A stretch of 32,678 nt of DNA, from NCBI GenBank assembly GCA_026419545.1, contig JANZZE010000012.1, positions 1 to 32,678 of the forward strand, given 5' to 3'. Numbering within the stretch: position 1 is the stretch's first letter; the number at the start of each line of letters is the position of its first letter. Positions 247-32,678 of the stretch are shown here, in pieces. A program made the position numbers and the translations under genes. The notes under the pieces were generated by a model, which was not told the DNA's origin, ran no database searches, and saw only the letters and a program-made list of their open reading frames with translations. Origin of the DNA: Acidimicrobiales bacterium. Its GTDB lineage: Bacteria; Actinomycetota; Acidimicrobiia; Acidimicrobiales; Acidimicrobilacustridaceae.

Positions 247-1935
247 TCAGGAGTCGCTGCCCAGCCTTGTCCCGCTCGTTCCTGGCTCCCCACCTCCGGA
301 CGGTTCCAGCCACACAGATCCAAGCCAAACCGTCGAACGCCATTGGCGAATGCCGGGTTCCCCTGTCGGGGTCCTCCAGTCAGCCAGTCCTCTGACCGCA
401 TTGCCGACGATCAAGGCCGATTGGACATGAACAAGGAAGACGTAGGGCAACTGCTCGGCCAGCACCTTTTGGAGCTGCTGGTATCTCTCGGCCTGAGCGG
501 TCACGTCCAGCGTCCGACGCGCGGCGTCAAGCGCCACATCGACCGACGGATCGTTGAACCGGGCGAGGTTCGCGCTCGGAACGCCCTGTCGGGGTACTCC
601 GCTACCACCGTGGAGCAGCGCGTAGTCCTCGTCGGGATGGCTACCGTCGAACAGCGCAAGCACCGCAGCTTGGAAGTCCCCACGTGCGACACGGGTGCTG
701 AGCTGCTCCTCGCTATCCGCGACTTCGATCTCAGCGAGGATCCCGACGACCGCGGTCTGCTCGATGATCCGCCGGGCTAGCTCGACCGCCAACGGTCCCG
801 GCCCGATTGTCAGCCGGAACTCCACAGGTCGACCGTTTCGGCGCTCGTGATCTCGGACAAGGTCCGCGGCATGAGCGACATCGAGGATGGGCCAGTGGGC
901 TTCACCGTAGAACCGTGAGCCCTCGCTGAAGGGACCGTCGGCGCGGAGGTACTCGCCGTTGAACACCTCCCGGGACAAGGTGTCGCGGTCAATCGAGAAT
1001 GCGAGCGCAGCACGAGCTGACCTGTCGTTGAACGGTGGCGCTGCCGTGTTCAGGACGATCACCAACTCCGGTGTGTCGTCACTCTTGTCCTTTAACACTT
1101 CGAACCCGTCGCCACCATCCATCGATGCGCGGGCCAGCTCGGCTGGATCGACGAGCCTGGCGACGTCGACTTCGCCTTGTCGCACCGCCGCGAACCGGGC
1201 GGCGTCATCTGGGCTGACCACGAAGGTGACGCGGTCAAGGCGCGGCAATCCATCCTGCCAATAGCCGACGCGCTTGGTCAGCACCAGCTCCCGACCAGCT
1301 TCCCAACGGTCCAACACGAACGGCCCACTGCCCACCGGAGCCCGCGCCGGATCGGCAGCCAGTCGCATCTGCGGCGAACTCACGAACCCGGGTTGTCCGG
1401 CCAGCATCTGAGGGAATGCTGCCCAAGGAGTCCGGAGAATTGCGACAACGGTGTCGTTGTCGATCGCGCGGATGTCGTCGACAGGTTCGAGCAACGGCCC
1501 GAGAGCAGCCGAATGGCGTGCCGCGTCAAGCGAACTCTTCACTGCCATCGCGTCGACCGGTGACCCATCGCTGAACGTGACCCCCTGGCGCAAGATGATC
1601 GTCCACTCGGTGAGATCACTGTTCGGTGAGACCTCGGTGGCAAGCCCGGGACGCAGCTCCGAGCTCTCATCGATCGTCAGCAACGGATCGAAGATGACCC
1701 GAGCGACTTGCAACTCGTCCGGGCCAAACCGAACGGTCGCTGGATCAAGACCGCTTGGATCACGCGGGAGGGCGAATCGCAAGTGGCCGCCCGAAGGCGA
1801 TCCGGGATCCGATCCCGAATCTGGAAGGGTCCGCGGGCCCCGGTCGCAGGATGCCAACGTCGCCAGCCAGGCAACGAATCCAAGGACGGCGCACAGTCGC
1901 AATACGATCGGCCACCGCCTCAAGACCCGCGACAC
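247..1935 (-). CDS. ABC transporter substrate-binding lipoprotein, family 5 (peptide/nickel type)
   Basis: This 562-residue protein should be the extracytoplasmic receptor of a family-5 (SBP_bac_5) importer, the class that binds peptides, nickel chelates or other small solutes. It starts at GTG 1935. A basic N-terminus and hydrophobic segment lead to a lipobox ending LASC with Cys30, so it is membrane-tethered. The mature start (LRFALPRDPSGLDPA, then FDPLLTIDESSELRPGLA and the WTIILRQGVTFSDGSPV block) matches the conserved N-lobe of the family, and total length is normal. Only 6 nt separate it from the glycosyltransferase stop upstream, so the two are probably co-translated. No permease or ATPase genes are in the window, so the substrate cannot be inferred. 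Confidence 0.9.
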   Translation of the reverse strand: MSRVLRRWPIVLRLCAVLGFVAWLATLASCDRGPRTLPDSGSDPGSPSGGHLRFALPRDPSGLDPATVRFGPDELQVARVIFDPLLTIDESSELRPGLATEVSPNSDLTEWTIILRQGVTFSDGSPVDAMAVKSSLDAARHSAALGPLLEPVDDIRAIDNDTVVAILRTPWAAFPQMLAGQPGFVSSPQMRLAADPARAPVGSGPFVLDRWEAGRELVLTKRVGYWQDGLPRLDRVTFVVSPDDAARFAAVRQGEVDVARLVDPAELARASMDGGDGFEVLKDKSDDTPELVIVLNTAAPPFNDRSARAALAFSIDRDTLSREVFNGEYLRADGPFSEGSRFYGEAHWPILDVAHAADLVRDHERRNGRPVEFRLTIGPGPLAVELARRIIEQTAVVGILAEIEVADSEEQLSTRVARGDFQAAVLALFDGSHPDEDYALLHGGSGVPRQGVPSANLARFNDPSVDVALDAARRTLDVTAQAERYQQLQKVLAEQLPYVFLVHVQSALIVGNAVRGLADWRTPTGEPGIRQWRSTVWLGSVWLEPSGGGEPGTSGTRLGSDS

Positions 1936-1941
1936 TGGCGT

Positions 1942-3516
1942 TCACCCAGTCGGTGCCGACCTGGCTTCGTCGACCCTAGCGCACTCGACAGATAGGGCCG
2001 ACTGAGAGGATGGGTCCTGCGTCGCAGTGTCGACAGCGGCCGGTCTCGAGCCGCGCCAACGAGCTACTGCCGCATCGACACCGATCGCCGCCAGGATCAC
2101 GAGTGAGACCTCCGCTGGCACCCGATAACGGGTGACACCGAAGCTCAGCGCTGCCGTGAGGGTGACGGCAGCCGCTATCCCGAGCAGCGGGCTGAGCGGT
2201 GTACCCCGCCGATGCAGTACCACCGCGCCGTACACCGCCAGTGGAATCAACAGCCAGTAGTACCAGAGCCCGATAAGCGACGGGTAGTACCCGCGTCCTT
2301 CGAGTTGGTCATTGAACGAGACGTTCTGGAAGGGCGCGTAGAGATCCCACATGCGCCCGATTCGAGCTAACACGACCACTGGGAGGCGCCAGAAATTTTC
2401 TTTTAGATAGTCGATGGCGAACTCCCGGGCGACGACATCGGCGTGCTCTTCGTAATAGATGAGGAGCCGATTGTCATAGGACTTCAGTACGTCGGCGCAT
2501 GTAAAGCTGTAGTACCCGACGGCGTCCCCATAGAACGCTTGGTCGCACGAGCCGTGGAGGAGCACCATGCCGGTGCCAGAGGTGACGAACACCGGCTCTT
2601 CGAACCGGCTGAGGTTGTAGAGAACCCAGGGCGCCATCAACGCACCCATCACCCCGACAACCACAGTCCCCAACGCAACCCTCTCCTTCCACGGCCGATC
2701 CTTCATCCTCCACAACAGGAAGGGGACCGTGAACGCCAGGATGAAGAACCCTTCACCTCTGGTGAGACCAGCCAACCCGAACATCGCTCCAGCAAGCGCT
2801 GCACTGGCAACGCTCGGTTGGCGTGCAAACCGATACATCGCCATCACCAACAGCGCCACGATCGGGATGTAGATCGACTCTGAGAGATAACGGAAATCGT
2901 TGATCCACATCATCGGATAGGTCGCGGCAATGAAGGCTGCGATCGGTCCCACGACCGGTCCGCGTCGGCCTGCCACCTGCCACGCCGCCGCGCCCACGAG
3001 TAGCACCCCGATCGCCCCCACGAACGGGAACACAATCCGCTGGTCCCCGGGGTTGTCGATGCCTGCCTTGTAGAGGACGGCCAGCACCACCGTGTACAGC
3101 GGAGGATGCCCAGCACCAGGGAGATATTCGGGGATTGCCGGATTCTTTGTGTTGTGGAGGAACCACGACGGCGAGTTGATGAACCCATGGCCTTCGGCCA
3201 GCAGCTTGGCCTGCGTCGTGAAGTAGAACGCGTCGCCCCAGTTGTAGTTCTGGAAGCAGCCCTCGGGTGGCTTCTCCCCGAACACCTTGGGTGACGGGCA
3301 ACTTGGGTACCAGCTGGTCACGGCAAACAGCCGAATGACCAGCCCGATCGCAGCAAAAACCAACAGCAACCCCACGCCGATACGTCGGGCTCGCGTGTTT
3401 GCGGCCTGCGGTGATTCATCCTGTGCGGGCCTCGGCTCATCGCTGGGCCGATCACCCGCAGTCGACCAGTCTTGCGCTCCTGGTCCGTCTGGTGCGGGGT
3501 CGCTGACCGCGGTCAT
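1942..3516 (-). CDS. Membrane glycosyltransferase, GT-C / PMT-2 type
   Basis: A 524-residue polytopic protein. After a roughly 45-residue Pro/Asp-rich cytoplasmic N-terminus there are about ten hydrophobic segments. The first external loop carries an acidic NWGDAFYF motif, where GT-C enzymes of the ArnT/PMT type keep their catalytic Asp, followed by the GHPPLYTVVLA segment typical of the PMT_2 domain. Such enzymes move a sugar from a polyprenyl-phosphate donor to a lipid, glycan or protein outside the membrane; acceptor and donor are unknown here. Several Cys occur in the external loops (CPSPKVFGEKPPEGC, GSCDQAFY, FTCADV), suggesting disulfides. ATG 3516 is chosen. It lies 16 nt after the SDR stop and 6 nt before the solute-binding protein start. 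Confidence 0.85.
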   Translation of the reverse strand: MTAVSDPAPDGPGAQDWSTAGDRPSDEPRPAQDESPQAANTRARRIGVGLLLVFAAIGLVIRLFAVTSWYPSCPSPKVFGEKPPEGCFQNYNWGDAFYFTTQAKLLAEGHGFINSPSWFLHNTKNPAIPEYLPGAGHPPLYTVVLAVLYKAGIDNPGDQRIVFPFVGAIGVLLVGAAAWQVAGRRGPVVGPIAAFIAATYPMMWINDFRYLSESIYIPIVALLVMAMYRFARQPSVASAALAGAMFGLAGLTRGEGFFILAFTVPFLLWRMKDRPWKERVALGTVVVGVMGALMAPWVLYNLSRFEEPVFVTSGTGMVLLHGSCDQAFYGDAVGYYSFTCADVLKSYDNRLLIYYEEHADVVAREFAIDYLKENFWRLPVVVLARIGRMWDLYAPFQNVSFNDQLEGRGYYPSLIGLWYYWLLIPLAVYGAVVLHRRGTPLSPLLGIAAAVTLTAALSFGVTRYRVPAEVSLVILAAIGVDAAVARWRGSRPAAVDTATQDPSSQSALSVECARVDEARSAPTG

Positions 3517-3532
3517 CTCCGGCTACTCCCCC

Positions 3533-4306
3533 CTACCGAGCCGTCCACCCGCCATCGACGACCAGGGTATGCCCCGTGACGTAACTAGACGCGTCACTGG
3601 CCAGGAACAGCAACGCACCGTCGAGTTCATGCTCGGCTCCCCCTCGACCCATCGGCGCGTTTCGGCGAAGGTAGGCATTCGACGCCTCGTCTTCGAACAT
3701 CGCCGTGGTCATCTCGCTGGGGAACCAGCCCGGGGCGATGGCGTTTACGCGGACGCCTTTGCGCGCCCATTGAACCGCCAGCTCGCGAGTGAGATTGACC
3801 ACTGCCCCCTTGGAGGCCGCATAGCTGGCCTGCTTGATCGGCGCCGAGGCCACCAGGCCGAGGATCGAGGCGATGTTCACAATCGAACCGCGGCCGACCG
3901 CGATCATTTCGCGCCCCACGAGCTGGGTGAGTGCGAACAACGAGTTGAGGTTCACGTCCACCACGTGCTCGAAATGCTCGAGCGGCTCGTCTTCAGCCGG
4001 AATCGGTTCACCAATACCTGCATTGTTCACGAGGATGTCGATCCGACCGTTCACGTCCAGCGCTGCCTGCACGACGGCAGCACGGTCCGGACCCCAAGTG
4101 ACATCACAGACAACCGGCACCGCCCGTTCGAGTTCGGTTGCCAGCTGTTCAAGCAGTTCCTGTCGTCGGGCGGCGAGAACGACGGTGGCGCCAGCCGCGT
4201 CGAGGACCCGGGCGAATCGCGCGCCGAGCCCGCTCGATGCGCCGGTGACGATGGCAACGCGCCCATGAAGCCCAAAGAGCGTGCCGATGTCAATGGTGAC
4301 GGACAT
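3533..4306 (-). CDS. Short-chain dehydrogenase/reductase (SDR), classical type
   Basis: 257 residues, the usual size of classical SDRs. The Rossmann cofactor motif TGASSGLG is at residues 21-28, NNAG at 94-97, a Ser at 147 and the YAASK active site with Tyr162 and Lys166. The C-terminal VDGGW signature is intact. It should be a cytoplasmic NAD(P)-dependent alcohol/ketone oxidoreductase. The residues after the first strand (AARRQE) would fit NADP, but this is weak. The substrate is unknown. It starts 12 nt after the TetR stop and is probably co-transcribed with that regulator, so it may act on the compound the regulator senses or on a product of the divergent LLM/ferritin-like run. Confidence 0.92.
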   Translation of the reverse strand: MSVTIDIGTLFGLHGRVAIVTGASSGLGARFARVLDAAGATVVLAARRQELLEQLATELERAVPVVCDVTWGPDRAAVVQAALDVNGRIDILVNNAGIGEPIPAEDEPLEHFEHVVDVNLNSLFALTQLVGREMIAVGRGSIVNIASILGLVASAPIKQASYAASKGAVVNLTRELAVQWARKGVRVNAIAPGWFPSEMTTAMFEDEASNAYLRRNAPMGRGGAEHELDGALLFLASDASSYVTGHTLVVDGGWTAR

Positions 4307-4318
4307 GAAATCATGAGC

Positions 4319-4993
4319 CTACTCGTGGGCTCGTCCTCGCCCCGCTCGTTCGAGCCGAGACTGCAGCTCCTTTGCCCTCGTTGGAGCCCACGCTGAGAAC
4401 ATGGCCACCAAGCCATCAGTGGCAAAGCTGACGAACTCCTCGTCACGTTGGGGATCCCCCTCGTCGAGCCACACCAGGACTCCATGGATGAGGTAATTGA
4501 CGATCGTCTGCGAGGCCCAACGCTTCATCACCGGGTCAGCGATCGCGTCCGCGATCATGGCATCTGCGATGACTAGGGCCTGCTGGTGCCGCTGGCTTGC
4601 GTACTCAGCAAAGTTGGGCTCCCGGTGGGCATGCACCATCAACAATCGGAAGCTGTCAGGGTCTTCACGGGCAACGGTCAGGATGGAACGGGTTATGAAG
4701 CCGCGTTGGCGTCGCTCAGGTCGCTTTAACAACCCGATAAATTCCTGCTCGAGCCGGTCTGAAACCCGGGTGAGCACCGATCGGTAGAGATCCTCTTTGG
4801 ATTCGAAGTGGCGATAGAGGATCAAACGGGTGACGCCGGCCTCCGCCGCAACGTCTTCCATGGAGGTGGCGGCAAACCCCGCGCGAGCGAAGGCTCTCGC
4901 CGCTGCAGCGAGAATCGATGCCTGCCGTTCCTCTCGACGCAGGAAACGTCTGGGTGCTGCTACGTCATTCATGGTTGGTGCTGATCGAGCCAC
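4319..4993 (-). CDS. TetR/AcrR family transcriptional regulator
   Basis: 224 residues with an N-terminal TetR helix-turn-helix at about residues 22-68 (ILAAAARAFARAGFAATSM, then VTRLILYRHFESKEDLY, the recognition helix region). The C-terminal half is a helical ligand-binding and dimer domain without a recognisable ligand signature. GTG 4993 has an AGGGAG stretch just upstream; ATG 4972 (residue 8) is an alternative start. The gene leads a minus-strand operon (SDR, glycosyltransferase, binding lipoprotein) and diverges from the ferritin-like/LLM operon. A perfect inverted repeat in the gap between them (5098-5119) is the likely operator, so it probably represses both directions and itself until an unknown ligand binds. 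Confidence 0.93.
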   Translation of the reverse strand: MARSAPTMNDVAAPRRFLRREERQASILAAAARAFARAGFAATSMEDVAAEAGVTRLILYRHFESKEDLYRSVLTRVSDRLEQEFIGLLKRPERRQRGFITRSILTVAREDPDSFRLLMVHAHREPNFAEYASQRHQQALVIADAMIADAIADPVMKRWASQTIVNYLIHGVLVWLDEGDPQRDEEFVSFATDGLVAMFSAWAPTRAKELQSRLERAGRGRAHE

Positions 4994-5090
4994 CGCTCCC
5001 TGCCGTCGCCGTCGAGACCTTCAGTTCCTTGTCTGGTTGGCGAAGGACGCTCGCCCCGAGACCACGACCTTCGTGTAGCACAGGCCACCA

Positions 5091-5118
5091 TTGCAAGGTG
5101 TATACACTCGAGTATACA
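5091..5118 (+). promoter_or_regulatory. Promoter for the ferritin-like/LLM operon
   Basis: TTGCAA at 5091-5096 (four of six matches to TTGACA), a 16-nt spacer, then TATACA at 5113-5118. The -10 box lies inside the right arm of the palindromic operator, so a bound repressor would block RNA polymerase. On the minus strand the same palindrome supplies TATACT (complement of 5111-5116) as a -10 candidate for the TetR operon. Inferred from sequence only. Confidence 0.5.
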
Positions 5119-5119
5119 C
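5098..5119. promoter_or_regulatory. Palindromic operator, probable TetR site
   Basis: A perfect inverted repeat, GTGTATAC at 5098-5105 and GTATACAC at 5112-5119, around the self-complementary XhoI-like centre within ACTCGA. It lies between the divergent starts of the TetR gene (4993) and the ferritin-like gene (5189). The size, symmetry and AT-rich arms in GC-rich surroundings are as expected for a TetR-family dimer site, and it overlaps -10 boxes in both directions. Confidence 0.7.
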
Positions 5120-5188
5120 TTTGGGTGTCGGGAAGCTCGGCCCGTGCCACCCACGGCGGGTCGACTGTTCGTCTTCAGGGGGGTTCAG

Positions 5189-24957: not shown

Positions 24958-25938
24958 TCAACCCCGACGACGGCGGCGCACAAGCCGCATGAGGACCGCA
25001 ACTGCAGCAGCGAGACCGAGCAACGGTAGGGCGCGCTTCAACACCGGCGAGCCTGCGGTTTCGAGCAAGTCGACCGGTTCCGGTTCCGGGCTCTCGACGC
25101 GATGCGCCGGCCTGGGTCCCGACGCCTCCGCAGCCTCGATCGTCGCGTCTGCACCGGCCGGAGCCGAAGAAGCGTGATCCACTGCTTGCTCGCCGGATAC
25201 AGCTCGCCGCTCGCCGTCGGCGGGAGGCGACGCCGCTGCCGCGTCGCCGTCCTCGGTCGGCCCATCGCCGGCCGAGGAAGACTGATTCGCTTCTTCGCTG
25301 TCAGCCCCAGCCGCCGTTTGCTTGGTGGCGATTTTCGCGGTCTTCTTGGTCGCCTTCTTCGCTCCGGACGCGGCTTGGGCCACTTTCACCTTGGCCACGA
25401 GTTCTGCTTCATCGGCGGGCGCGGACGCCGAGCCGTTGCCTGCGTTCGGTTCGTTCTCAGCCATTTCGACCTCCTCCGATCGTGCGCGTTCGCCAGCGAG
25501 TACCCGTTGCTCGAGGTTCTCGACGAACTGCGCCAACAGCTTCGCGCTGACGTCAGCGATGACGCCCCGACCGAACTGCGCGACCTTGCCGGTGACGTTC
25601 AAGTCGGTGAGCACGTCGACCTGGGTCGTCGAGTGATCTTTGGGAACGAGCTGCGCCGAGATCGTCGCTGACGCGTTGCCCTGGCCGCGCGTGTCCCGCC
25701 CAGAGGCCTGCACCACGGCTCGATAGTTGCGATCATCTCGCTCGACGAATCGAGCAGTGCCTTTGTACTGCGCAGTGATCGGACCCACCTTCACCTTGAC
25801 GATCCCGCGGTACTCGTCACCGTCGATTCCTTGGAGTTGGGCACCGGGTAGACACGGCGCGATGCGCTCGATGTCGGTCAGCACCGCCCAGGCTTCGTCG
25901 ATCGGTACCGGCACCTCGAACTCGTTCGTCAGCTCCAC
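24958..25938 (-). CDS. coxG: CoxG-like SRPBCC protein with C-terminal membrane anchor
   Basis: 326 residues from GTG 25938. Residues 1-150 are the CoxG/SRPBCC domain (LTNEFEVPVPIDEAWAVLTDIERIAPCLPGA, then VGPITAQYKGTARF and FGRGVIADVSAKLLAQFVENLE). A long disordered Ala/Lys/Glu-rich linker follows, with a KKATKKTAKIATK basic patch, and then a membrane helix near 298-318 with a terminal RRRRRG. In CO dehydrogenase clusters CoxG recruits the enzyme to the membrane and helps pass electrons to the quinone pool; the anchor here fits that role. Its gene overlaps the mocA stop by 10 nt, so the two are co-translated. No CoxL or CoxS is in the window. Confidence 0.88.
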   Translation of the reverse strand: MELTNEFEVPVPIDEAWAVLTDIERIAPCLPGAQLQGIDGDEYRGIVKVKVGPITAQYKGTARFVERDDRNYRAVVQASGRDTRGQGNASATISAQLVPKDHSTTQVDVLTDLNVTGKVAQFGRGVIADVSAKLLAQFVENLEQRVLAGERARSEEVEMAENEPNAGNGSASAPADEAELVAKVKVAQAASGAKKATKKTAKIATKQTAAGADSEEANQSSSAGDGPTEDGDAAAASPPADGERRAVSGEQAVDHASSAPAGADATIEAAEASGPRPAHRVESPEPEPVDLLETAGSPVLKRALPLLGLAAAVAVLMRLVRRRRRG

Positions 25939-26489
25939 TGGCCAAGGTCCTCCATGCGGTCGATGTCGCCGGGTTCGCCGTCGAACGGTATCTCGCGGAC
26001 GAGATCCGGTCTCAATCGCATCAGTTCACGAGCGCCCGAATCACCAGAGCTGGGCAAGAGACCGAACACCGCGGACGCGAGCCGCACAGGATGGCCACGC
26101 CGGCCCCCATAGCAGGCCACGGCGATGGGCGCATCGACCGCAGCGGCAACCGTGCGCCACGCGTCCACGGTAACCCCGGGTTGATCACCGAGCCCGACCA
26201 CGATCGCCTCATGAGCGCGCGCAACCGCATGGTCGACAGCGACCCGCAGCGACGTCGCCAGACCGCCAGCCCAGTCCGGGTTGTCCAGGACGGTGACGGT
26301 TGGCGGGAGCTCTGCGGCAAGCGATACGGCCCCTTGCACCACGATCGTCTCGTCCAACCCAGCAGCCAGCGCCGAGCCAACCGACCAGGCAACAACCGGC
26401 TGACCCCCGAGAACCGTCAACAGTTTGTGCCTCGGGCCACTGAAACGGCTGCCTGCACCCGCCGCCAGCACCACTGCCGCCGTCGTCAT
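25929..26489 (-). CDS. mocA: MocA-like molybdenum cofactor cytidylyltransferase
   Basis: 186 residues from ATG 26489. The nucleotidyltransferase loop is LAAGAGSRFSGPRHKLL (residues 8-24), GLGDQPGV near 99-106 supplies the metal-binding Asp, and NPDWAGGLATSLR is the family block. MocA-type enzymes attach CMP to molybdopterin to make the dinucleotide cofactor (MCD) used by CO and xanthine dehydrogenase-type enzymes. TACCGT lies 7 nt before the ATG, a leaderless pattern, and the longer reading to 26813 has no support. Its stop lies inside coxG. With coxG, xdhC and coxM nearby it clearly belongs to a molybdenum hydroxylase system. Confidence 0.88.
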   Translation of the reverse strand: MTTAAVVLAAGAGSRFSGPRHKLLTVLGGQPVVAWSVGSALAAGLDETIVVQGAVSLAAELPPTVTVLDNPDWAGGLATSLRVAVDHAVARAHEAIVVGLGDQPGVTVDAWRTVAAAVDAPIAVACYGGRRGHPVRLASAVFGLLPSSGDSGARELMRLRPDLVREIPFDGEPGDIDRMEDLGQWS

Positions 26490-26496
26490 GACCGTC

Positions 26497-26512
26497 ACGG
26501 TACGCATAAGGT
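26497..26512. promoter_or_regulatory. Back-to-back -10 boxes of two divergent leaderless genes
   Basis: On the minus strand TACCGT (complement of 26497-26502) lies 7 nt before the mocA ATG. On the plus strand TAAGGT (26507-26512) lies 7 nt before GTG 26520. Only 30 nt separate the two start codons, so each promoter's upstream region overlaps the coding start of the other gene and the two must compete or be co-regulated. Confidence 0.5.
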
Positions 26513-27049: not shown

Positions 27050-27196
27050 GAGATCAATCTCTTGATCCGCCGCGGCATGCGCCAGAGTCAGGACAAGATC
27101 CGATTCACGCCACGCGTTCGGCCACTTGGGATCAAGATCGACGTCTCGAACGTCGCCGAAGCTCTCGAGGTCCTCGAAGGTCCGACTGCCCGCTGA
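27050..27196 (+). pseudogene. vapB: VapB-like antitoxin, C-terminal part only
   Basis: The frame before VapC reads EINLLIRRGM, then a basic stretch and LGIKIDVSNVAEALEVLEG before a TGA that overlaps the VapC ATG (TGATG). LLIRRG is typical of the end of the DNA-binding domain and the tail of the toxin-neutralising part of a VapB. In frame upstream there is no ATG or GTG before the DUF6941 gene; only TTG 27062 and ATG 27077 exist, which would give about 40 residues without the DNA-binding domain. The N-terminal half appears lost. It may still make a short toxin-binding peptide. Confidence 0.55.
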
Positions 27197-27627
27197 TGCT
27201 GGTCGACGCAAACATCCTCCTCTACGCCGTCGACACCGAGAGCAGGTTCCACTCAGCGGCTTCGGCTTGGCTCACCGACGCGCTCAACGGTCCGCGCCGG
27301 ATTGGACTCCCGTGGCAATCAACCACAGCGTTCCTCCGGATAGCGACGAACCCACGTGCAGCGCGGAATCCGTTGTCACCTCGCGAGGCCTGGGAGATCG
27401 TCGACGCATGGCTCACCGCGCCTGCAGCCTGGATCCCGATGCCAGGGCCCGGCTACGTAACAATCTTTAGCGACTTGATCGTCCGATACGACCCTCATGC
27501 CGGGCTCATCAGCGACGCGGCCATTGCCGCCCTCGCAATCGAACACGGAGTTGAAGTGGTTAGCGCTGACAGCGATTTCGCCCGCTTCAGCGAGATCCGG
27601 TGGGTGAACCCATTGGCCTGCACCTGA
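27196..27627 (+). CDS. vapC: VapC-like PIN-domain toxin
   Basis: 143 residues, the normal size. The PIN acidic residues are Asp4 (LVDANILLYA), Asp107 (SDAAIAALAIEHG) and Asp125/Asp127 (VSADSDFARF). WQSTTAFLRIATNP is the usual second block, with Gln41 where some PIN proteins have an acidic residue. VapC toxins are Mg-dependent endoribonucleases that cut tRNA or rRNA and are held by VapB. The start codon is set by the TGATG overlap with the antitoxin frame. The toxin looks intact beside an N-terminally truncated antitoxin, so it is either silenced, neutralised by the short peptide, or inactive. Confidence 0.9.
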   Translation: MLVDANILLYAVDTESRFHSAASAWLTDALNGPRRIGLPWQSTTAFLRIATNPRAARNPLSPREAWEIVDAWLTAPAAWIPMPGPGYVTIFSDLIVRYDPHAGLISDAAIAALAIEHGVEVVSADSDFARFSEIRWVNPLACT

Positions 27628-27786: not shown

Positions 27787-28869
27787 TCAGTGAATCGCAC
27801 CGTCTGTATCCCTGAGGGAACACCCGGAACGGCCCGAGCGCAACCGGATGATCTCGGCGCAAATCGAGATGGCAGTCTCCTCAGGCGTTCGGGCCCCGAT
27901 ATCGAGACCGATCGGTGCCATCACCCGCTCGAGCGCGACCTCGTCAACACCCACCTCCCGTAGTCGGGCGAGCCGCTCGGCGTGGGTCCGCCGGCTCCCC
28001 ATCGCGCCGATGTACCCCACGTCAGTGGCGAGCGCTGCGCGGATGGCTGGCACGTCGAACTTGTGATCATGGGTCAAGACGCACACTGCGTCACGGGGTC
28101 CGAGCGCAGCGCCGATTCGTTCAAGAAACCGCTGTGGCCAGTCGACGACGACCTCATCAGCCATCGGGAACCGTTGTCGCGTGGCGAACGTCTCACGAGC
28201 GTCACACACGGTCACCCGGTATCCGAGCAACTTGGCTGCACGGGCAAGGGCAGCAGTGAAATCAACTGCGCCGAAGATCACCATGCGCGGCGGGGCGGCA
28301 AACGACTCGATGAACACCGTCACGGCGTCTTCGCGAGCCTCGCCGTGCGGCCCGTAGTGGCGGATTGCGCTCGTGGCCGCAGCCAACTCAGCAGCTGCAT
28401 CGCGACCAACCACCCGATCCAGATCTGGATCGCCCAGCGTCCCGTGCCGCGCGGCTCCCGACCTGACGATCATCTTGGCGCCAATGCCTGGACCGTCAAC
28501 GATCGTCGCCAACGCCACCGGCTCTTCTCGACGCAGTGCGTCCACCAATGGCTCGAACCCGGTGAACGGTTCGATGAACAGCTGGATGGTCCCGCCGCAG
28601 GTTAATCCCACCGCGAAGGCCTCATCGTCGCTGTGACCGAACGACACCAAGCGCCGACTGCCCGTCGGGAGTAGACGCAGCGCCTCGGTCACGACAGCAC
28701 CTTCGATGCACCCGCCGCTGACCGACCCGGACACCTCGCCGGTCTCGTTGACCGCCATGGCCGCTCCAGCCAACCGCGGGCCTGAACCCTCGACGTTGAC
28801 GACTCGCGCCACCATCACGTTCCGGCCAGCGGCGTTCCATCGCTCGATGTCATCGAGGAGGTCTCTCAC
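27787..28869 (-). CDS. xdhC: XdhC/CoxF family molybdenum hydroxylase maturation protein
   Basis: 360 residues from GTG 28869, whose GTGA overlaps the end of the coxE remnant. The N-terminal XdhC/CoxI domain has VNVEGSGPRLAGAAMAV, SGSVSGGCIEGAVV and GLTCGGTIQLF, with its two conserved Cys. The C-terminal Rossmann domain has MVIFGAVDFTAALARAAKLLGYRVTVCD and VLTHDHKFD, then YIGAMGSRRTHAERL and GLDIGARTPEETAISICAEII. XdhC-type proteins bind the molybdenum cofactor and help sulfurate and insert it into xanthine/CO dehydrogenase-type enzymes. It looks fully intact, unlike its two upstream partners. Cytoplasmic. Confidence 0.93.
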   Translation of the reverse strand: MRDLLDDIERWNAAGRNVMVARVVNVEGSGPRLAGAAMAVNETGEVSGSVSGGCIEGAVVTEALRLLPTGSRRLVSFGHSDDEAFAVGLTCGGTIQLFIEPFTGFEPLVDALRREEPVALATIVDGPGIGAKMIVRSGAARHGTLGDPDLDRVVGRDAAAELAAATSAIRHYGPHGEAREDAVTVFIESFAAPPRMVIFGAVDFTAALARAAKLLGYRVTVCDARETFATRQRFPMADEVVVDWPQRFLERIGAALGPRDAVCVLTHDHKFDVPAIRAALATDVGYIGAMGSRRTHAERLARLREVGVDEVALERVMAPIGLDIGARTPEETAISICAEIIRLRSGRSGCSLRDTDGAIH

Positions 28870-29323
28870 CGACGTATCACCTCAGCTAGCTCTTCGAACG
28901 CGGCAAGGCTGCGCCCGTCGACGAACTGGTCGACATGAGGCACCGCTGCCGCCGTTCCTCGGGCGCTCGGTTCGTAACCCTCTGATGCCTTGAGCGGGGT
29001 TCACCCACATGGTGGTCAGTGTCGTGCTCTCCTGCGTGCACAACTTCCGGATCGGTCGGCGGGCCGAGTGGATCTCCCAGCGGGAGCGCCAATCCCCCTC
29101 TCCACCACCAGTCGAAGGCTGCCTCCAGCGCTTCGCGGTGCTCGGGAGAACTGGTGAGGGTTGCACACGCTTCCCACCACAACGACACTCGATCGGGGTG
29201 CGGCAACGCCGCAATGGCCCTCCCGAACGCGACCGATGCCTCGAGTGGAACGTCGACTCCGAGAGCCCGCAGGTGAGTGACCAACGTGAGCCGGTCACAC
29301 GGAACTGCCACCGCTTCGGCCAT
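28866..29323 (-). pseudogene. coxE: coxE remnant: VWA-domain protein without its VWA domain
   Basis: The N-terminus is sound: ATG 29323 with GGAGGAAAG upstream, and about 75 residues (VTHLRALGVDVPLEASVAF, then LWWEACATLTSSPEHREALEAAFDWWWRGG) that match the start of CoxE-type VWA proteins. The C-terminus is also clear in another frame: GYEPSARGTAAAVPHVDQF, then DGRSLAAFEELAEVIRR to TGA 28866-28868, preceded by WVNP. Between them roughly 230 residues holding the MIDAS metal site are missing, and one extra base in GGGG 28996-28999 breaks the WVNP-LKASEG join. The whole span is about 150 codons where about 380-400 are normal. It overlaps xdhC (GTGA) and coxD (TGATG), so it once was a coupled operon gene. 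An assembly gap is the alternative. Confidence 0.8.
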
Positions 29324-29475
29324 CAGCTTTCCTCCACGCGCCGGCCGGTGCTGAACAGCGGTCGGCCGAGGCGGGCGGCGAGGAACACGGCCGTCGCCAA
29401 CCCGTCGTCGGCGAGATAATCGCTCTGGTCGAGGAGCCGTTCGACCGCGTCAGGGGACTCGAAAGGCCACGTCAC
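29323..29475 (-). pseudogene. coxD: coxD remnant: MoxR-type AAA+ protein cut before the P-loop
   Basis: GTG 29475 to TGA 29323-29325, 50 codons, reading VTWPFESPDAVERLLDQ then YLADDGLATAVFLAARLGRPLF. This is the opening of CoxD/MoxR ATPases up to the residues just before the Walker A loop (normally LGRPLFLEGE-GVGKT). It then jumps to STGRRVEES and a TGA that overlaps the coxE ATG. About 240 residues with all ATPase motifs are missing, while start and stop context is kept. CoxD is the AAA+ chaperone that works with CoxE to mature the active site of CO dehydrogenase. It is 9 nt after the Dabb gene stop. Confidence 0.75.
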
Positions 29476-29484
29476 CCCAATAGC

Positions 29485-29784
29485 CTACGGGCCTGCGTCA
29501 AACTGCACCGCAGCCCGGGCAGCAAGTATCGGTTGGATCCGGTCGGCGAGCAGTGCCCGATGCGCAGGGTGGTCCCGATAGGCCCGGTAGCCATCCGGGT
29601 CGTCGAAGTCCGCCACAACAGCAAAGTCATAGTTGCCGTCGTTGATGCCAGCGTCGCGGCCGAACCGGTAGCCCCGAAGCGACTGGATACGAGACGGCAA
29701 TTCGGCGAGTGCCGCTTCGACCGCGGCAATCTGCTCATCGGTGACTCCGTCGTTCCAGCGGAACAGTGCGACGTGGCAGAACAT
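29485..29784 (-). CDS. Dabb-domain protein (stress-responsive A/B barrel)
   Basis: 99 residues from ATG 29784, which has GGAG 6 nt upstream; ATG 29790 is an alternative adding two residues. The sequence MFCHVALFRWNDGVTDEQI, then YRFGRDAGINDGNYDFAVVADFDD and YRAYRDHPAHRALL, is a classic dimeric alpha/beta-barrel Dabb protein with the conserved HxxLF/W and H-P-x-H motifs. Functions vary (small-molecule cyclases, stress proteins, unknown). It precedes the coxD remnant by 9 nt and is the first gene of that minus-strand run. A direct role in the molybdenum enzyme system is not known. Confidence 0.92.
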   Translation of the reverse strand: MFCHVALFRWNDGVTDEQIAAVEAALAELPSRIQSLRGYRFGRDAGINDGNYDFAVVADFDDPDGYRAYRDHPAHRALLADRIQPILAARAAVQFDAGP

Positions 29785-29911
29785 CGGCATCTCCGTTCGG
29801 TTGGCCTCGGACCCTCAGTCGGGTGATCCCGCACGAGAGCGTGACTGGGTGATCGCGATGAACGCCACCCGTGACGCGTTGACGCAACCAATCGGGTGGC
29901 TCCGCACGATA

Positions 29912-29917
29912 TATGGT
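29912..29917 (+). promoter_or_regulatory. -10 box, leaderless start of coxM
   Basis: TATGGT ends 6 nt before GTG 29924, inside an AT-rich patch (GATATATGG) that stands out in this GC-rich DNA. No ribosome binding site is present. Confidence 0.5.
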
Positions 29918-29923
29918 GACTGA

Positions 29924-30748
29924 GTGATCCCTGCCCCGTTCGAGTACTTGCGCGCCGGGTCGGCTGAGGAAGCAATCTCGCTGCTCGCTGAGCACGGTGA
30001 CGACGCCAAGGTGCTGGCGGGCGGGCATTCGCTGCTCCCGCTCATGAAGCTGCGGCTGGCGACACCCGGTGTGCTCATCGACATCGGCGAGCTGAGAGAA
30101 CTGTCATACATCCGAGACGGTGGTGACCACGTCGCAATCGGCGCCTTGACCTGTCATCGGGACCTCGAACGCAGCGAGCTGCTCCAGCACGAGGTGCCGT
30201 TGCTTTCGTTTACCGCGCATCTCGTCGGCGATCCCCAGGTGCGGAACCGTGGAACGATCGGCGGCTCACTCGCGCATGCGGATCCAGCCTCAGACCTCCC
30301 CGCGGCGGTGCTCGGGCTCGGGGGCACACTGGTTGTCACCGGTCGGGAAGGCTCCAGGCACCTCGCGGCCGATAAGTTCTTCACCGGTTTTCTCGAATCC
30401 GCCTTGGCTCCCGACGAACTGCTGACCGAGATCAGGGTCCCAAAGACCGGCGACGCTGGCTGGTCCTACCAGAAGTTCAACCGGCGAGCACAGGATTGGG
30501 CGATCGTGGCCGTAGCAGCGGTAACCGGGCCGCAACCGCGAGTTGCTCTCGTCAACATGGGTCCCACACCCATGCGGGCTGCTGCCACCGAGGCAGCCTT
30601 GGTCAGCGGCGCAAGCGCAGCCGAAGCTGCCGAGCTCGCGGCTGACGGAACCGAACCACCCACCGACATCAACGCCACCCCGGACTACCGCGAGCATCTC
30701 GCCCGGGTGCTCACCCGGCGAGCGCTTGCCGAAGCCGGCGTCGCCTGA
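29924..30748 (+). CDS. coxM: FAD-binding subunit of a molybdenum hydroxylase (CoxM type)
   Basis: 274 residues from GTG 29924, normal for CoxM. It has both FAD-binding signatures: AGGHS at residues 32-36 (LAGGHSLLPLMKLR) and RNRGTIGGSLAHADPASDLPA at 107-127. VGDPQVRN before it and the GWSYQKFNRRAQDWAIV block later are also typical. In CO dehydrogenase-type enzymes this subunit passes electrons from the 2Fe-2S small subunit to the quinone pool. The expected partners CoxS and CoxL do not follow: the next 260 nt hold no clear gene and then YceI is on the other strand. It is divergent from the Dabb-coxD'-coxE'-xdhC run. Confidence 0.93.
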   Translation: MIPAPFEYLRAGSAEEAISLLAEHGDDAKVLAGGHSLLPLMKLRLATPGVLIDIGELRELSYIRDGGDHVAIGALTCHRDLERSELLQHEVPLLSFTAHLVGDPQVRNRGTIGGSLAHADPASDLPAAVLGLGGTLVVTGREGSRHLAADKFFTGFLESALAPDELLTEIRVPKTGDAGWSYQKFNRRAQDWAIVAVAAVTGPQPRVALVNMGPTPMRAAATEAALVSGASAAEAAELAADGTEPPTDINATPDYREHLARVLTRRALAEAGVA

Positions 30749-32660: not shown

Positions 32661-32678
32661 CTGTCTCTTATACACATC
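32661..32678 (+). other. Tn5 mosaic end / Nextera adapter (artefact)
   Basis: The last 18 bases are CTGTCTCTTATACACATC, identical to the first 18 of the 19-bp Tn5 mosaic end used in transposase-based library kits. This is untrimmed adapter at the contig end, not genomic DNA, and is AT-richer than everything around it. The gene that runs into it is therefore truncated at 32660. Confidence 0.95.

Follow-up and report, generated by a model that had tools for sequence, protein, structure and literature searches.

In Oligotropha carboxidovorans, CoxD is required for sulfuration of the molybdenum center and CoxE acts with CoxF in copper insertion into form I CO dehydrogenase (PMC4240915, PMC3471820). 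The locus considered here lies in a window of 32,678 nucleotides (contig JANZZE010000012.1 of an Acidimicrobiales bacterium), where an open reading frame at 29323..29475 on the minus strand resembles the O. carboxidovorans CoxD, a MoxR-type AAA+ ATPase of 295 amino acids (PMC3471820), in its N-terminal ~41 residues and in its place directly upstream of coxE, but lacks Walker A, Walker B, the sensor, the arginine finger, and a recognizable C terminus. Likewise, the window shares with CoxE (VWA_CoxE, PF05762; PMC4240915) the first ~80 and the last ~42 residues, whereas the VWA core is missing, the surviving parts lie in two frames, and conserved residues have been replaced. The frame at 29323..29475 is very probably a coxD pseudogene remnant in a decaying molybdenum-hydroxylase accessory cluster, and the coxD and coxE stubs represent ordinary gene decay and no new minimal protein.

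The coxD remnant consists of 50 codons, as listed among the open reading frames of the window, with a GTG start codon and a TGA stop that overlaps by one base the ATG start codon of the following frame (TGATG), as the first-pass annotation had described. Its CoxD-like beginning, also proposed there, was borne out by a profile search with a CoxD HMM of 297 positions built within this analysis (positions 2 to 38, 36.6 bits) and by a best match to the 309-residue CoxD of the relative G012 (58% identity over 40 amino acids, E value 1.3e-9). This similarity accounts for residues 1 to ~41 (29353-29475, minus strand) and breaks where the Walker A loop begins, close to where the annotation had placed the break; all of the AAA_5 motifs (Walker A, Walker B, sensor, and arginine finger) are absent, the open reading frame stopping earlier. 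A Pfam search with the remnant gave no match, while the CoxD of a relative retrieves PF07728. From CoxD position 38 to CoxE position 9, the window retains 53 nt, compared with a median of 811 nt in relatives (range, 766 to 933), so that ~760 nt were lost, close to the ~720 nt estimated earlier. The supposed retention of the CoxD C terminus, on the other hand, did not hold up. The last ~9 codons (29323-29352, minus strand) are of unrecognized origin, and when the tail STGRRVEES was compared with 60 CoxD C termini, 948 of 1,000 of its own shuffles scored at least as well. Judging from the sequence, the CoxD C-terminal region is unrecognizable in the remnant, and the idea that both ends were kept appears unsupported.

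Nor was there a single clean deletion, as had been suggested, since coxE has also lost its core and is now in two frames. An N-terminal remnant at 29081..29323 (minus strand) covers the first ~80 codons (CoxE model positions ~9 to 73-98 of 370), with several near-invariant residues replaced, and a C-terminal remnant at 28866..29000 (minus strand) comprises the last 42 codons (model positions 328 to 369 of 370) in a different frame, its stop overlapping the start of xdhC. The span from CoxE position 79 to position 330, which has a median length of 747 nt in relatives, is reduced to less than 100 nt in the window; thus, the VWA core is gone, with a loss of ~0.67 kb. None of the window frames gave a Pfam match to PF05762 (VWA domain), while the CoxE of a relative scores 219.6 bits. 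In all, the coxDE region has suffered two separate internal losses (~0.76 and ~0.67 kb) and one frame break. Neither the internal deletion and frame break in coxE nor the absence of coxS, discussed below, had been noticed in the first-pass annotation. A search for deletion-flanking repeats in 28860-29500 yielded none that was convincing, only imperfect pairs of 11 to 15 nt. The pair is decayed: it has lost domain cores that its orthologues possess, and its frame is disrupted. As predicted from what is left of the two proteins, neither stub is able to act as an ATPase-VWA chaperone.

The genes around the stubs are intact. Downstream on the minus strand lie a gene for an xdhC/coxI-type maturation factor (27787..28869; PF13478 and PF02625), the core of a MobA/MocA-like nucleotidyltransferase (25929..26501), whose open reading frame extends upstream, antisense to another gene, and coxG (24958..25938; PF06240). 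On the other side, a gene for a Dabb-domain protein (29485..29790, minus strand) is followed by a gap of 133 nt (29791..29923) and by coxM, encoding the FAD subunit (29924..30748, plus strand; PF00941 and PF03450). A PIN-domain/VapC-like open reading frame, named from its sequence, lies between mobA and xdhC (27196-27627, plus strand); it has no obvious antitoxin gene and might have been inserted into the cluster. At the far end of the window, positions 32661-32678 read CTGTCTCTTATACACATC, a Nextera/Tn5 mosaic-end adapter, and the last open reading frames of the contig are untrustworthy.

For comparison we used 80 GTDB loci around xdhC and the orthologues in 61 whole genomes. Among the 80 loci, all coxDE pairs uncut by contig ends were full length, with the exception of the CoxE of L087 (8536-10001, MAG FR_3), which consists of two overlapping frames split at about model position 267, through either a frameshift or a sequencing error. 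In the 61 genomes, CoxE orthologues were complete except where cut by contig ends, and every short CoxD match was likewise a contig end, so that the short form, which the annotation had proposed to look for in related genomes, was found in none of them. In L015, L018, L032, L142, L143, and L141, from related draft genomes, contigs end within coxD/MoxR genes near the Walker A region, a pattern that conserved sequence common to paralogues might explain. In L039 (G049; 1718-5138), a whole coxL gene lies in the opposite orientation between the two xdhC domain parts, unlike most other relatives, in which these parts are adjacent or fused.

Two Microthrixaceae relatives place the stubs in a series. 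G002 (contig of JAKOVR010000196) has the same gene order as the window, coxG-mobA-xdhC-coxE-coxD-Dabb, with coxD adjoining the Dabb gene and a divergent coxS-coxM followed by coxL, but here all genes are whole and coxS is present, in contrast to the stubs and missing coxS of the window. G008 (contig of JAGQTE010000360) shares the layout without coxD and coxE, so that xdhC stands directly behind the Dabb gene; it does keep the coxS that the window lacks. In both relatives coxS occupies the position of the 133-nt gap, in which we found no coxS remnant. In a tree of XdhC, CoxM, MobA, and CoxG, the window, G008, and G002 group together (bootstrap, 96), while the window and G008 pair weakly (bootstrap, 67); G008 gave no rpoB match. 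With the same layout intact in G002 and devoid of coxDE in G008, the window appears to represent an intermediate stage. A literature search for coxD or coxE pseudogenes returned no relevant match.

The assessment of constraint rests on near-invariant columns, defined as those at least 90% conserved among relatives. Such columns were broken at 5 of 16 positions in the N-terminal CoxE part, a comparison based on 16 loci, and at 5 of 21 in the C-terminal part (24 to 31%), compared with 2 to 8% in the intact genes of the window (XdhC, 3/154; CoxM, 4/108; CoxG, 2/64; MobA, 4/49) and 4 to 7% in the CoxE proteins of relatives. Constraint on the surviving CoxE parts is thus relaxed. The CoxD part, with 0 of 9 columns broken, is too short to show decay, and its mean identity is lower than that of all 58 relatives in the HMM alignment, in which the junction columns are included. 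The GC3 of the stubs was not clearly shifted, and GC and GC3 gave no clear signal of decay or of foreign DNA.

These values also bear on the possibility that the organism carries intact coxDE and that two internal stretches were lost during metagenome assembly. The draft comprises 344 contigs, mosaic-end sequence is present at the end of this one, contigs break within coxD/MoxR genes in several related drafts, and one frame break falls in a short C run. However, if an intact gene had merely lost its middle in assembly, its ends should be undamaged, and the proportion of broken columns in the CoxE pieces therefore favors decay over simple drop-out. In addition, a search of the whole assembly found the missing CoxD and CoxE cores on no other contig, coxS is gone as well from its place beside coxM, with clean flanks, and coxDE has been lost completely in G008, which has the same layout. 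We consider such an artifact improbable.

Alternatively, the short frames might be retained on purpose, the 50-codon frame and the open frame from the coxE start serving as a translated leader that keeps ribosomes moving to xdhC and sustains expression of xdhC, mobA, and coxG after loss of the cores. The TGATG overlap would fit, as would the frame opening at the coxE start, which runs for 145 codons without a stop and terminates 16 nt short of the xdhC start. Yet in simulations that placed random deletions at comparable positions in 56 relatives, the native coxD stop was still used in 33% of cases and the fused coxE frame ended near the xdhC start in 36%, so that each property arises about one time in three. 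Stops are rare in the GC-rich DNA here, and the open frames and the overlap need no selection. The "clean" coxD frame is thus near chance, and the argument that it is odd for random decay is not supported. Protection of downstream translation, also put forward earlier, is difficult to reconcile with the state of the coupled gene, coxE itself being gutted, in two frames, and under relaxed constraint. In G008, moreover, xdhC does without any such frames behind the Dabb gene, and the short form recurs in no relative. A leader role is therefore very unlikely. A new functional mini-protein derived from the CoxD N-terminal linker is hardly credible, for although the N-terminal segment is recognizable and none of its conserved columns is broken, it lacks any ATPase motif, occurs in a single genome among those searched, ends in an unrecognizable tail, and has a broken partner in CoxE.

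The assembly has just one further MoxR/VWA pair (C291), which is full length and divergent. It is of the same two-protein kind as CoxDE but related to MadB/MadC models, with 48% identity to CoxD and 25% to CoxE, and constitutes a different paralogue unlinked to the cluster. The sole coxL found in the genome (C30) is form II-like (AYRGAGR), is unlinked to coxDE, and most closely matches coxL genes that stand alone. Cluster-linked coxL genes of the loci examined carry the AYRGAGR motif as well, with AYACSFR in the divergent L035; given what is established about form I and form II enzymes, those of the AYRGAGR type would not be expected to undergo copper insertion. Around coxM, a search of the window for coxS and coxL remnants gave chance-level matches only. 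The only [2Fe-2S] Fer2_2 domain found in the assembly (C178) belongs to a different fused protein. That protein corresponds to a 561-amino-acid frame (L130, 5487-7169, minus strand) that combines the [2Fe-2S] domain with a short, reduced molybdopterin-binding-like region and lies between HesB/IscA-like and RidA-like genes.

Returning to gene decay as the origin of the stubs, the ancestor would have had, between xdhC and the Dabb gene, a full coxD (MoxR-type AAA+ ATPase) and coxE (its VWA partner). Comparison with relatives shows that the AAA+ core and recognizable C terminus of CoxD were removed, as was the VWA core of CoxE, through two or more separate internal deletions, and that the remainder of coxE is split over two frames. 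CoxDE may have become dispensable because the hydroxylase of the cluster was lost or because the remaining enzyme needs no CoxDE, after which the stubs would have drifted. The lack of coxS between the Dabb gene and coxM, the lack of a linked coxL, and the presence of only the unlinked form II-like coxL point to hydroxylase loss, as seen in an assembly that is ~91% complete. Most likely, CoxDE was left without a client by the loss or replacement of the linked hydroxylase genes and then decayed. Chance would account for both the TGATG overlap and the open frames, given that the coxD 3' end (where the stop lies) and the coxE 5' end survived in GC-rich DNA.

In summary, the locus offers a modest example of an ATPase-VWA chaperone pair vanishing from a molybdenum-hydroxylase cluster, intact in G002, gutted in the window, and absent from G008. 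For annotators it holds a caution, since a CoxD-like N terminus is not evidence that the maturation pathway is present. Furthermore, it suggests that the coxM-xdhC-mobA-coxG set can outlive coxD, coxE, and coxS.
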